NCBI RefSeq assembly: GCF_900129745.1
Contig: NZ_FQWS01000001.1
Location: 310,001 to 374,000 of the forward strand
Reading direction: 5' to 3'
Source: Winogradskyella jejuensis
GTDB lineage: Bacteria; Bacteroidota; Bacteroidia; Flavobacteriales; Flavobacteriaceae
Length of the DNA: 64,000 bases
Below are positions 55,206 through 64,000 of this stretch, piece after piece. Both the position numbers and the translations under genes were made by a program. Position 1 is the first letter of the stretch. Each line of letters opens with the position of its first letter. The notes beneath the pieces were generated by a model. That model was not told the DNA's origin. It saw only the letters and a program-made list of their open reading frames with translations, and made no database searches.

Positions 55206-55378
55206 TTAAACCACACAACAGTTAATTTCAACTAAAACCCTATAAACATTATTATTTAATAGATTTAAGATATACTTTGATATTAAATGATAGCATCTAA
55301 AATCATATTATTCTGTACTTATTCTGTACTAATAATATTTTTAAATTCACTATCTTTAAGGCATCAAATTTGTGGATA

Positions 55379-56710
55379 ATGGCAATTATAAAGATAGTTC
55401 TACGTAAGAATATGATGAGAAAGGACGGCACTATTCCTTTAGCCATACGAATTAGTGAGAATTATAAAACCAATTACAAATGGTTAGGACAATATGTGCT
55501 TGAAAAAGATTGGGATAAGATTTCTCAAAAAGTCAAGAGAACACATCCAAATGCCAAAAAGCTTAATAACTTCTTACTAAAAAAACTTACTGAAACCAAC
55601 GACATCTATTTCGATTCAAAAAAAACATTATCTCCCAAGCAAGTTAAAGAAAAACTAAAAGGACCAGGTGGCACGCAATCATTTTTTGAATTTGCAGCAA
55701 AACGAGTTGAACGCAAGTTTAATAAAAAAGTGTACTCAGTTGCCAAATCTGAAATGTCTATCCTTTATAACCTTTCGGAGTTTTTATCTAAAGATGACTC
55801 CTTGACTATTGAACAATCACGCATTGAAATTAAAAAAAGACGAAAGGAAAGAATTAGTAAGGCAAGAAAGAACGAGCTTCACATAAAGGATGCTATTGCT
55901 AGTTTTAAGAAAAATAAGAAACTTCTCTTTCAAGATATTTCAGATACATTTATAAAAAACTACAAAGTCTTTTGTAGTTCGCATCTTGAGCATAAGCCAA
56001 GAACCGTCACGAACCAACTGATTTTTATACGCACCCTATTTAACAGTGCTATAAAAGAGGGAATTATTGATGCTACCTTCTATCCGTTTTCAGGTGATAA
56101 TGAAAAAATTAAAATTGGAACAAGTCACAAAATTGGTCTTATTCCAACTGAAGTAGAACGAATTGAATCTCTTAAAGTTGAAAAGCAGTCCAGTATGTGG
56201 CATACCAAAAATATATGGCTCACAGCATTTTACTTTGCCGGGATTAGAATATCTGATGCTGTGCAATTGAAGTGGTCTGAAATCAAGGATGGTAGGCTTT
56301 TGTACACAATGGATAAAAACAAAAAGCCCGTTAGCTTAAAAATCTCAGATAAAGCCTTAAGAATCATAAACAGTTATAAATCGCAGAAGAATGAAAATAA
56401 CGGTTACGTATTCCCTTTTCTTAAAGACGTGAACCCACAGGATGAAGAAGATTTGTTCCGAAAAATCAGAAATGCCACCAAGCTTTTCAATAAATATTTA
56501 AAGCGTATCGCTTCTGCCTGTGATATCGACAAGAACTTATCTAATCATATTGCGAGACATACTTTTGGTAATATTGCAGGTGATAGAATTCATCCACAGA
56601 TGCTACAAAAATTGTATAGACATAGCGATTTGAAAACTACCTTGAATTACCAGGCAAATTTCATCCACAAGGAGACAGACGAGGCTTTGGAGCGTGTGAT
56701 AAATTTTTAA
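55379..56710 (+). CDS. int: Tyrosine-type site-specific integrase
   Basis: A 443-residue tyrosine recombinase with an arm-binding N-terminal domain (first about 100 residues), a SAM-like core-binding domain (about 100-200) and a catalytic domain. The catalytic residues are seen as Arg in AGIRISDAVQLKW, the HIAR block with His and Arg, the second His in YRHSDLKT, and the Tyr nucleophile in LNYQ. The ATG at 55379 fits the family start (MAIIKIVLRKN); a longer TTG start 9 bases earlier is unlikely. It is the first gene inside the attachment site, as is usual. Confidence 0.93.
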   Translation: MAIIKIVLRKNMMRKDGTIPLAIRISENYKTNYKWLGQYVLEKDWDKISQKVKRTHPNAKKLNNFLLKKLTETNDIYFDSKKTLSPKQVKEKLKGPGGTQSFFEFAAKRVERKFNKKVYSVAKSEMSILYNLSEFLSKDDSLTIEQSRIEIKKRRKERISKARKNELHIKDAIASFKKNKKLLFQDISDTFIKNYKVFCSSHLEHKPRTVTNQLIFIRTLFNSAIKEGIIDATFYPFSGDNEKIKIGTSHKIGLIPTEVERIESLKVEKQSSMWHTKNIWLTAFYFAGIRISDAVQLKWSEIKDGRLLYTMDKNKKPVSLKISDKALRIINSYKSQKNENNGYVFPFLKDVNPQDEEDLFRKIRNATKLFNKYLKRIASACDIDKNLSNHIARHTFGNIAGDRIHPQMLQKLYRHSDLKTTLNYQANFIHKETDEALERVINF

Positions 56711-58293: not shown

Positions 58294-58414
58294 TTGCTAA
58301 AAAAAAGAGGAATTGGATATTCCTAACCTACTGTGATTTTGGATTTGAATTGACGCGACTTTTAACGAACTTCTAAATTGACCTCCAGTCCAGTTGGCTA
58401 TACTGATTGATAGG

Positions 58415-59248
58415 ATGGTTTTGGATTTCGAACAAATAATAGACAGTTATAAAACTGACGTTTCTAACATAGAGCAAAGTAGCGCTAGTATTCTCGATTG
58501 TGCCAATAAAATCATCATACGCTCTAGGAATATTCTCAACACATTCAAGAAGCACGTTCAGAAAAATGACTTTAAAGAAACAGATGACGAAATCTATTTC
58601 TTCAAGAATACTAAACAAATACCTTTAACGCCCTTAATTTACTATTCCGAAATCCGCTCATTTGAGCTTCAATTCCCTAAAGTGAATCACAAAACTCAAG
58701 AGAAATTTGTAGGTGCAAAAATGAGAAAATTGAATCGTTTTTTTACTCATAACCTGGACTTTGTTCAGTATGTAGATAATGGTCTAACGCATTTTGACTT
58801 ACAATTTTACACGAGAAATTTTATAGACTTCTATCATATTACTTCGTCAGATTTTTATTTTCAAGACCCAGAATTTTCGACTTCTCGGGATATGCTACTT
58901 GGAAAGGTAAGCGCTAACAAAAAGCTTATTACATATCTTCAGAAAAGACTAGCTCAACCAGAACAAAATAGCTTAAATGGATATAGTACACACAAGCCCT
59001 TGAAGTGGACAGCTTCTAAAACAGGTCTTACCGAACTTATTTACGCTTTGCATTGTAACCGGGTTATCAATAACGGCAATGTAGAAATTAAGGAGATAGT
59101 TGCCTCCCTTCAAAAAGTCATACAATTTGACTTAGGTGATTTCTACAAAATATACTCCGAAATTAAATCCCGAAAAATCAGCCGTACCAAGTTCCTAGAC
59201 GACCTATCTGCTGGTCTTATCACGCAGATGAACAACTCTGAAGAATAG
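58415..59248 (+). CDS. rteC: RteC family excision regulator
   Basis: A 277-residue RteC-type protein (RteC is the known activator of excision genes in CTnDOT). Hallmark parts are the helical N-terminus (MVLDFEQIIDSYKTDVSNIE), a central YYSEIRSFELQFP and the C-terminal SLQKVIQFDLGDFYKIYSEI with KSRKISRTKFLDDLSAGLITQ. ATG at 58415 is preferred over the TTG seven codons earlier because it starts the first helix cleanly. It marks this island as a conjugative or mobilisable element. Confidence 0.88.
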   Translation: MVLDFEQIIDSYKTDVSNIEQSSASILDCANKIIIRSRNILNTFKKHVQKNDFKETDDEIYFFKNTKQIPLTPLIYYSEIRSFELQFPKVNHKTQEKFVGAKMRKLNRFFTHNLDFVQYVDNGLTHFDLQFYTRNFIDFYHITSSDFYFQDPEFSTSRDMLLGKVSANKKLITYLQKRLAQPEQNSLNGYSTHKPLKWTASKTGLTELIYALHCNRVINNGNVEIKEIVASLQKVIQFDLGDFYKIYSEIKSRKISRTKFLDDLSAGLITQMNNSEE

Positions 59249-62293: not shown

Positions 62294-63925
62294 CTAGTGC
62301 TTGACTTCATCTGCTAACCACACACCATATTTTTTCCAAAGTTCATACATCACAAGCCACTCGGATATCCAAGGTATAACATCCACAAAATTCAAGTCCA
62401 AATGTGGTGATAAATCTTTGGGATAGTAAAGGCACAAACTATTTCCAGGATATAGATGTGGTGTTTTGCCAAACTTGATTTGACTATCATTTAGCACATA
62501 AACCCTTTCTTTTCGCCCTTTCCTATTGATATTATACTCGACAAGAATCTCATATTCTTTTTTGCATCCATTGGGTCTGATTTTTCCTTTTCCCAACAAT
62601 TTTCCATCGGTGATGACAGTTTTAAGCCAAGGAAAGTGTTTATCTAAATAGTCTTTTTGGATATGTGCCGCAATATAATTCTTCTGTATATCCTTTTTAC
62701 CCGAATTCAAATTTAATTCTACACCACCGTAGTTTCTATTCGGTTTGCTAGGGTAGCCTGAATCTCTAGAAATTCTTCCTCGGTCGTTAACATAACTTTT
62801 ACCAGATAGTATAGCAAGACCTGCTTTTTCTAATTCATTTTTACCATTTCTAGATAAGTTTTCTATTTGAGACTTTAAAATGGTTTTAGTTCTAGTACTG
62901 CCAAACAAGTCTTCCGCAACACTAAAGTTCCCATTTTTTAACTGCTCCCATTTTTCTTTATAGCTCCTAACAAAACTGATGAATTGAGTGTAGAATTCTT
63001 TATCCTTATCCCACTTTTCAGTAAAATCCTCATCTTCATTTACTGGATTCAGAACCTTAATTCTTTTGTAAACTCCACTACTTTCATAAAGCTTTTCATA
63101 GCTAGTGTAGCGTTCTAATATCCTATTTAGCGTATTATCAATTGTTTCATAAATTGATGCTTCACCTTGATATAATTCTCCAAAAATTGTAGTCAATACG
63201 ATACTTGATGTTTTATGCTTTGGTTTTTTTTCAAAGAAAATATCTCTGTATCGTTTAGTAAGCTGTACTGAACGTTTTAGTGGTTCTTTTTCATAAATAT
63301 TCTCATCTGGAAGGTCCTCTTGTTCTGCTTTGGCTTCTGATAGAGTAACATAATCACTGAATGCTTTTCGTAACAAAACTGGTTCACGAATACCTTCAGC
63401 TTTATCAGTAAACCATTTAGCATACCCTTTGGGAAAGGAAGAAGTCCAAGTTGCTAGTTCACGGTCGGGTACCATAATTTTATCTTCGAATGGGATGATT
63501 ATACAACCAGGTAAGATGTCTAAATGAAAATCCCCGGCGTAATTTATTCTTGCGCACCTGTTCTTTTTTAGAAGTTTTGGCCTATAAACCTCATTGCTAG
63601 TGAAGACACGTATGAGGTGATTGTAAATCTCCGACGAAGTATAGTTCCTGTATGAATCCTTAATTTGAACCACAATATCTAAATCAAATTCATCCTTTCC
63701 TATTGGCTTTGTGGTTGTTCCTATAGCTTTTGAACCCTGTGGATAGACTATAAAATCAACCTTAGAGAAAAATACTGGGTCCGCCTTTAGAACATCATAG
63801 ATGGCATTGTAAGCAGTCTCCATCTTATTTGACCTTGTTTCGTCAAGCTCCAGCGACTCAGCAAGTCTTGCCAATAAGTCCTCACGCTGAAAACCATTTC
63901 TATATAAGTAATCTTGAAAATTCAT
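62294..63925 (-). CDS. CD-NTase (cGAS/DncV-like) fused to an E2-like domain
   Basis: A 543-residue protein. The N-terminal about 390 residues are a CBASS-type nucleotidyltransferase: the GS motif at residues 64-65 (YPQGSKAIG), catalytic Asp81 and Asp83 in EFDLDIVV and Asp136 in HLDILPG. Such enzymes make cyclic oligonucleotides when phage is sensed. A Gly/Ser-rich linker (SRDSGYPSKPNRNYG) leads to about 130 residues resembling standalone E2 proteins of type II-short CBASS: PHLYPGNSLCLYYP with a candidate catalytic Cys498 and His490, then the IPWISEWLVMYELW end. A preceding gene on this strand ends directly at its start codon (63926), so they form one operon; the effector is likely beyond the window. 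Confidence 0.8.
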   Translation of the reverse strand: MNFQDYLYRNGFQREDLLARLAESLELDETRSNKMETAYNAIYDVLKADPVFFSKVDFIVYPQGSKAIGTTTKPIGKDEFDLDIVVQIKDSYRNYTSSEIYNHLIRVFTSNEVYRPKLLKKNRCARINYAGDFHLDILPGCIIIPFEDKIMVPDRELATWTSSFPKGYAKWFTDKAEGIREPVLLRKAFSDYVTLSEAKAEQEDLPDENIYEKEPLKRSVQLTKRYRDIFFEKKPKHKTSSIVLTTIFGELYQGEASIYETIDNTLNRILERYTSYEKLYESSGVYKRIKVLNPVNEDEDFTEKWDKDKEFYTQFISFVRSYKEKWEQLKNGNFSVAEDLFGSTRTKTILKSQIENLSRNGKNELEKAGLAILSGKSYVNDRGRISRDSGYPSKPNRNYGGVELNLNSGKKDIQKNYIAAHIQKDYLDKHFPWLKTVITDGKLLGKGKIRPNGCKKEYEILVEYNINRKGRKERVYVLNDSQIKFGKTPHLYPGNSLCLYYPKDLSPHLDLNFVDVIPWISEWLVMYELWKKYGVWLADEVKH

Positions 63926-64000
63926 TTACAATATGTATTTAGAGTGTTGTCCTATTCTTGTTTTATGTTCGTCAAAGCATTCTTTTTTTATATCATCCTC
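63926..64000 (-). CDS. C-terminal end of the gene upstream of the CD-NTase (5' end outside)
   Basis: Minus-strand frame open to the window edge, 24 residues (starts EDDIKKECFDEHKTRIGQHS) and TAA at 63926-63928, exactly adjacent to the CD-NTase ATG. The abutment implies co-translation and thus a functional partner, for example an effector. The residues visible are too few for a family. Confidence 0.6.
   Translation of the reverse strand, partial: EDDIKKECFDEHKTRIGQHSKYIL

Follow-up and report, generated by a model that had tools for sequence, protein, structure and literature searches.

A CD-NTase joined to an E2-like domain in a Winogradskyella jejuensis conjugative element, with a junction that may process itself

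Overview

A CD-NTase and an E2 domain are truly joined in one chain encoded in a 64,000-nucleotide stretch of the Winogradskyella jejuensis genome (contig NZ_FQWS01000001.1, positions 310,001 to 374,000; hereafter the window), and the motif with which related unfused cyclases end is retained inside this chain, at the join. In related antiviral systems the corresponding E2 is a separate partner, and the join suggests that the chain may cut and couple itself. In effect, the system could be a cis version of type II-short (E2-only) CBASS with a self-processing junction, a reading drawn from sequence comparison and predicted structures whose chances we judge to be evenly balanced. Its ground is the anatomy of the chain, its homology and folds, its conserved residues, the retained motif, the operon and the carrier element, all of which are observed.

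Architecture of the fused gene

The two parts of the protein are recognised by different profiles. Residues 18-175 match Pfam SMODS (E 3e-16), and residues 410-543 match the PADLOC E2 profile PDLC00862 (E 6e-42). In addition, the PADLOC profile PDLC00816, labelled 'Cyclase', covers the whole chain (residues 1-543 on positions 1-542 of 542, E 8e-271). A first-pass annotation, made from the sequence, had proposed a CD-NTase and an E2-like part in one chain, and these three matches bear it out. The profile search that it recommended found the cyclase within residues 1-390, as expected; for the E2 part the PADLOC match was obtained, and no Pfam E2 family matched the fused protein up to E 1. Two NCBIfam cyclase models match far under their curated cut-offs.

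The cyclase part is a SMODS/DncV-like nucleotidyltransferase with a GS pair and three aspartates, and G64-S65, D81, D83 and D136 are invariant in all six aligned rows. In the C-terminal part, the predicted catalytic cysteine, C498, is preceded by H490, and both are invariant in the 12 rows of the E2 alignment and in 14 of 14 separate E2s. All these residues, as well as IPWISEWL (residues 517-524) and the C-terminal end VKH, lie where the annotation had placed them; no special role for the VKH end is apparent.

Table 1. Features of the fusion gene, its neighbourhood and the PLD-containing relatives (window positions, unless a locus is named)
Feature	Position	Strand	Basis
CD-NTase-E2 fusion gene, 543 aa	62294..63925	-	single uninterrupted ORF
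CD-NTase (SMODS/DncV-like) part, residues ~1-345	62891..63925	-	Pfam SMODS, Foldseek
Nucleotidyltransferase motif, G64-S65 to D81-x-D83	63677..63736	-	sequence position, alignment
D136, third catalytic Asp	63518..63520	-	sequence position, alignment
Linker, residues 346-417	62675..62890	-	mostly low model confidence, variable columns
Y399-G400-G401, internal cyclase C-terminal motif, predicted scissile region	62723..62731	-	alignment
E2 (UBC-fold) domain, residues ~418-543	62297..62674	-	PDLC00862, domain model, Foldseek
H490 of PH motif, eight residues N-terminal of Cys	62456..62458	-	invariant
C498, predicted E2 catalytic cysteine	62432..62434	-	invariant
3' end of 275-aa 2TM-NUDIX effector gene, abutting the fusion gene	63926..64000 (runs past window)	-	Pfam, PADLOC
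Tyrosine integrase of carrier element	55370..56710	+	Pfam Phage_integrase with arm and SAM domains
RteC-like regulator of conjugative elements, in carrier	58394..59248	+	Pfam RteC E 3e-66
PLD-YGG-E2 loci, genome G1070	L088 1153-2316; L134 5239-9186		
PLD-YGG-E2 loci, genome G1100	L089 1471-2634; L135 4901-8525		

Predicted structures and the nearest solved system

The AlphaFold2 model of the full chain (21-row alignment, mean pLDDT 70.7) has two folded parts and a low-confidence linker, with pLDDT below 50 at residues 345-379, 381-385 and 391-417. Its best Foldseek matches are the SmCdnG chains 8yjy_A and 8hsb_A (E 8e-20 and 2e-19), and all 50 rows shown, cyclases and other entries with a nucleotidyltransferase fold, align with the cyclase part only. 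Thus, the structural check proposed earlier gave the two folded parts, with the E2 absent from those 50 rows; among the rows shown, it is recovered with the domain model only. This model of residues 396-543 (12-row alignment, mean pLDDT 80.9) has the UBC fold, and its first matches are 8yjy_B and 8hsb_B (E 5e-5 and 7e-5; TM 0.64 by query for the best). Among the best 50 of 921 matches up to E 10, an E of 0.001 or lower is reached by these two Serratia E2 entries only, and the other 48 rows are E2, UEV and UFC1 proteins or complexes (E 0.002-0.03), with Cdc34, UFC1, Tsg101-UEV and other eukaryotic E2-fold entries among them.

Sequence searches lead to the same pair. The cyclase part matches 8hsb_A in phmmer (E 6e-29) and the E2 part alone matches 8hsb_B (E 0.0012), while a profile of 14 separate E2s, from which the window's protein was excluded, matches 8hsb_B with an E of 1.4e-33. 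The E2 fold of the C-terminal part is thus supported by predicted structure as well as by sequence. As judged from these matches, both parts have their nearest solved counterpart in the CdnG-E2 pair of Serratia (8hsb/8yjy), a type II-short CBASS, in keeping with the affinity to type II-short systems that had been suspected. A non-E2 identity of the C-terminal part is ruled out by PDLC00862, the separate-E2 profile and Foldseek.

A cyclase C-terminal motif at the join

Just N-terminal of the E2, the chain reads NRNYGGVELNL. In ten aligned fused proteins, Y399 and G400 are invariant, and residue 401 is glycine in eight and serine in two. Invariant columns make up 39% of the linker, compared with 65% and 66% of the two domains, and Y399-G400-G401 is a conserved island within this otherwise variable linker. 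In Marinirhabdus (L010), a separate ORF of 401 aa encodes the cyclase, which shares 76% identity with that of the window and ends HRNYGG; the overlapping next ORF is the E2. Another split cyclase (genome G212, 67% identity) ends NRNFGGVE. These split relatives end at the same point; consequently, the fusion join keeps the unfused C-terminus in register.

The same ending is found in cyclases with a separate adjoining E2. In 138 loci, 37 of 39 such cyclases end with [FY]x?G followed by 0-9 residues (the exceptions are L064 and L073), a pattern that was set after viewing the C-termini and a count made on related rows, from which only those with identical last 45 residues were removed; Fisher values computed on these rows consequently do not represent independent tests. 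Some loci with an E2 match were left unscored because the upstream cyclase was truncated or unrecognised by the pattern. An earlier count over 82 loci found the motif in 31 of 33 cyclases with an E2 versus 30 of 276 other ORFs of at least 200 aa; these control ORFs rule out a general property of proteins. Among the cyclase-like ORFs of the 138 loci that were scored as lacking an E2, 3 of 15 carry the terminal motif, and two of the three (L056 and L071) in fact possess an E2 overlooked by the detection pattern. With both reassigned, the motif is present in 39 of 41 cyclases with an E2 versus 1 of 13 without.

Unfused type II-short cyclases mostly have a short tail after the aromatic-Gly motif, and the Serratia cyclase chain in the PDB ends NTFYGE at residue 407. 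In a 14-row cyclase alignment, the aromatic residue and the glycine each reach 90% conservation or more; aligned through L010, Y399-G400-G401 of the window falls on this aromatic-x-Gly. A review table that cites Yan 2024 gives Y405 as the position at which the prokaryotic enzyme is conjugated in an E2-dependent manner (PMC12135389). When aligned through L062 and L010, Serratia Y405 would correspond to G400 of the window; the predicted scissile bond is consequently G400|G401, which would explain the invariant G400 and the variable residue 401. Because unfused cyclases are mostly tailed and the Serratia chain ends NTFYGE, cleavage behind the motif may, by analogy, already be normal type II-short chemistry, with the fusion turning the E2 into the tail. 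The annotation had held that the natural C-terminus is buried behind the E2 and that priming must differ. This is only partly right, as the motif is kept internally at Y399-G401.

Proposed self-processing of the chain

We propose that the conjugation signal of the cyclase sits at the join and that the E2 occupies the place of the short removable tail. C498, with H490, would attack the peptide bond at the junction (placed by alignment at G400|G401, maybe one residue to either side), and the cyclase would be released, bound to the E2 through a thioester, with no E1 involved. It would then be passed from the E2 to a lysine of another cyclase or of some other protein, and this conjugation would prime or activate it on infection. 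Finally, the cyclic nucleotide would turn on the 2TM-NUDIX membrane effector, so that the cell is halted and the infection ended (abortive infection). We infer cleavage, thioester and conjugation, as well as the target, the trigger, the nucleotide made, the action of the effector and the role in defence. By simple geometry, the span of about 17 residues at 401-417 should be long enough for an intrachain reaction. In the Serratia type II-short system (Yan et al. 2024), the E2 reportedly processes the cyclase tail, forms a thioester and builds chains without an E1. If so, the E2 would be a transpeptidase that discards the tail, and in the fused chain the E2 would itself be the piece that is lost.

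Several observations favour self-processing: the Serratia relative shared by both parts, the terminal motif of the unfused cyclases and its Serratia counterpart with Y405, the motif in every fused protein, the break of the split relatives at this motif, the lack of matched E1 or JAB genes, and YGG-E2 in a PLD protein (the last two are presented below). Against it, the linker is disordered in the full-length model, so that the junction is not positioned in the active site of the E2, and 2 of 10 fused proteins have GS instead of GG. In addition, systems with a separate E2 work unfused, and fusion might perhaps be neutral. With regard to the GS variants, serine in place of the conjugated glycine abolishes conjugation in type II-long CBASS, as described by Jenson 2023 (PMC10097602); thus, in these variants the bond would have to lie before the serine.

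The disordered junction would also fit a chain that is never cut, in which the E2 is a permanent domain with a regulatory or scaffold role, or acts in trans on other molecules, and the fusion only sets a 1:1 ratio. A binding role alone is plausible, as the titles of 8hsb and 8yjy indicate a complex of the Serratia E2 with the cyclase as a separate chain. Nevertheless, the C-terminus of an uncut cyclase would be unusable, yet the motif is conserved and the cysteine and histidine of the E2 are invariant, and we consider this arrangement unlikely. E1-independent conjugation by E2-only systems is little understood. Under self-processing, the substrate, the scissile junction and the E2 would be in one molecule, which makes the central step testable by mass spectrometry on a single protein, and the natural split relatives are ready-made controls for the fusion.

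Operon and carrier element

Three genes that abut or overlap one another form the operon, in which the fusion gene comes last. It is preceded by the 2TM-NUDIX effector gene (locus L011, 4926-5753; Pfam Sa_NUDIX E 1e-46; PADLOC 2TM effector PDLC00699 E 1e-153) and, first in the operon, by a gene for a 138-aa LRAT-family protein (L011 5746-6162, just past the window end). The latter has an NCEHF motif and matches Pfam LRAT (E 1e-9); its match to Peptidase_C97 is weak (E 0.009, under the cut-off), and no PADLOC match was found up to E 0.1. The same gene order is found in 10 of 10 loci with distinct fused proteins and also in L010, where the cyclase is split off (L011, L003-L010, L013 and L015 are headed by the LRAT gene); none was seen in the split locus of G212 (L137). 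This cysteine enzyme has a hydrophobic segment near its C-terminus, and LRAT-family proteins are often lipid acyltransferases or phospholipases.

With such a gene at the head of the operon in all ten loci, a separate protease, either this LRAT/PPPDE-like enzyme two genes upstream or one of the host, might cut after YGG, and the E2 would then act ordinarily or in trans. Cys101 and His31 of the LRAT protein are invariant in all nine sequences aligned, out of 11. Precedents in the literature include ubiquitin precursors, which are cleaved by separate peptidases (PMC11354881), and a bacterial Ubl-E2 fusion described in JAB peptidase systems (PMC7159879). By contrast, the LRAT gene is also kept in Marinirhabdus, whose cyclase already ends in a bare GG, and the hydrophobic segment and lipid enzymology make a second effector an equally likely role for the protein. 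Cutting by a separate protease thus seems to us quite unlikely.

For self-processing without an E1, the gene content around the fusion is of interest. No match to E1 (ThiF) or JAB was found, at E 0.1 or 0.01, in 17 of the 19 L011 ORFs of at least 100 aa and in five window ORFs; the two other L011 ORFs lie antisense within scanned genes.

The carrier is, by its gene content, a Bacteroidota conjugative element. The suspected mobile element is confirmed by the integrase and the RteC-like gene in the window and by TraG-, TraM- and TraN-like genes on the same element beyond it. A 628-aa CHAT-domain protein (L011 16013-17899) is also encoded among the genes of this element. A divergent pair at L011 6457-7843 consists of a weakly sigma-70-like gene (matches under cut-offs) and a gene whose product resembles DarG and type I methyltransferase entries in their C-terminal parts. 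In L062, too, a divergent gene is annotated as a sigma factor, and visual inspection suggests similar genes in this arrangement in L025, L027 and L137.

Distribution and evolution of the fusion

An intact fused ORF of 543-544 aa is present in 5 of 397 genomes of the family, W. jejuensis included, and split near relatives are present in 2 of 397. In a scan of genome contigs, the ORF was fused in seven of eight loci, the eighth being L010. Homologues with the same fusion had been called for, and ten distinct fused proteins, the window's included, were found and aligned, all from its family. A chance ORF, an assembly join or a sequencing error is ruled out by these recurring intact fusions.

The fused state has nevertheless changed over short distances. 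In the cyclase tree, split L010 falls in a group (support 86/99) with four fused rows to which it is 92.5-93.0% identical. The best tree implies two transitions between the fused and the split state, although well-supported branches force only one. The E2-part tree is mostly unresolved, with L010 grouped with no fused row; in alignment A6, the E2 row of L010 was taken from an upstream start that is unlikely to be the true one. The position of L010 indicates that changes of state occur, and a neutral gene fusion could account for them: overlapping cyclase and E2 frames would be joined by a small indel, leaving a protein that works as before or is failing. The two frames do overlap in the two nearest split relatives, whose DNA at the junction is similar to that of the fused form, apart from small differences. 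Nevertheless, ten distinct intact fused genes exist, the two domains retain the high shares of invariant columns given above, and the fused state is kept down to 74% identity; a neutral fusion therefore appears decidedly improbable.

A further fusion, of 492 aa and with the linker YYGRGG, occurs in another Bacteroidota family (L048 1474-2952 and L136 6449-7927), behind a patatin-like effector fragment in L048. Its divergence suggests, at the level of sequence, an independent origin.

Viral contigs scanned with the fusion gave no relative. Other viral-contig scans gave four type II-short E2 loci and nine cyclase loci, with one contig shared by the two sets. Viral-contig cyclases that lack this E2 (L074, L077 and L079) share a terminal KPW, and a gene of about 250 aa follows each of them. 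Phage records gave one cyclase match among 50,697 (25% identity, 66% of the query). Among 72,556 plasmid records 148 match, none at 60% identity or above, and the fusion was found neither in the ten matching plasmid records examined nor in three from another search. In two Spirosomataceae plasmid CBASS loci, a second nucleotidyltransferase gene lies directly 3' of the E2 (L131 4517-5389, L132 4368-5225). A Nostoc plasmid carries a cluster annotated as multiubiquitin/E2/E1 directly upstream of a type II-short CBASS (L133 1-2472). In W. jejuensis itself, a second CD-NTase of 506 aa lies beside a patatin-like gene (L002, contig C9), with no E2 in the 4 kb read.

YGG-E2 behind a PLD domain

The motif and the E2 are also joined to a different enzyme. 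Two genomes of the class (G1070 and G1100; 2 of 23 positives among 395 searched) encode a 387-aa protein in which a PLD domain (Pfam E 1e-15 and 2e-16) replaces the cyclase and is followed by SKPHRYYGG or SKPHRFYGG and then by the E2 (E 2e-40 and 1e-42). Since YGG-E2 stands here behind a PLD domain, the motif seems to go with the E2 system rather than with the cyclase, and the YGG-E2 module appears to be portable. Next come a reverse transcriptase gene and a gene for a 267- or 289-aa protein with no Pfam match up to E 0.01, and the three genes together look like an undescribed defence operon. A search of 395 genomes of the phylum with the PLD-E2 protein gave no further such fusion among the matches listed, and viral contigs scanned with it gave no relative.

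More tentatively, the aromatic-Gly linker and the E2 might form a portable self-processing cassette, an idea that we find possible if somewhat doubtful. The E2 cysteine would draw on the energy stored in the junction bond, in the manner of inteins and sortases, and the preceding domain would be cut and coupled to lysines without an E1. Such a cassette would serve cyclases, in two apparently independent fusions, and a PLD-like enzyme. PLD-YGG-E2 would then extend conjugation-controlled immunity beyond cyclases.

Comparison with known systems

The pairing of a CD-NTase with an E2 is already known, and the fused chain is already clustered in PADLOC: PDLC00816, with 542 positions, represents the same fused family end to end, under a label that omits the E2. 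No description of a CD-NTase-E2 fusion was found in the open-access literature among the matches listed, which does not imply its absence from print.

As in type II-short CBASS, the operon has a cyclase and an E2, with no E1 or JAB matched in the ORFs scanned, and the gene of an effector (the Sa_NUDIX 2TM gene) whose activation by a nucleotide is predicted. The tailed aromatic-Gly motif, a feature derived here, is also present, but internally at residues 399-401, and the E2 is not a separate protein, as a single ORF encodes both parts in ten distinct proteins. Type II-long CBASS is ruled out, as no match to the E1 or JAB families of its E1-E2 (Cap2) and JAB (Cap3) genes was found in the ORFs scanned and the chain ends VKH instead of Gly/Ala. 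In type II-long systems, as described by Jenson 2023, the C-terminus of the cyclase is joined to targets through Cap2, and conjugation of this C-terminus is what they would share with the type II-short idea presented here. By contrast, they need an E1, their cyclase ends tail-less in Gly/Ala and their E2 is fused to the E1 and not to the cyclase (PMC10097602). EAD1-Ubl-E2 of the FtsH ternary conflict systems, in its published description, also has a conjugated element and an E2 in one chain, but the element is a Ubl domain, E1, JAB and RING genes are present and there is no nucleotide cyclase (PMC7159879).

The closest likeness is to Serratia marcescens CdnG-E2 (PDB 8hsb, 8yjy and 9kkb), whose CD-NTase and E2 are homologous to both fused parts. 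Serratia CdnG has the aromatic-Gly motif at its C-terminus, with a one-residue tail, and the fused chain has the same motif internally. Thus, what are two separate proteins in Serratia form one chain in Winogradskyella, with the E2 in the position of the tail.
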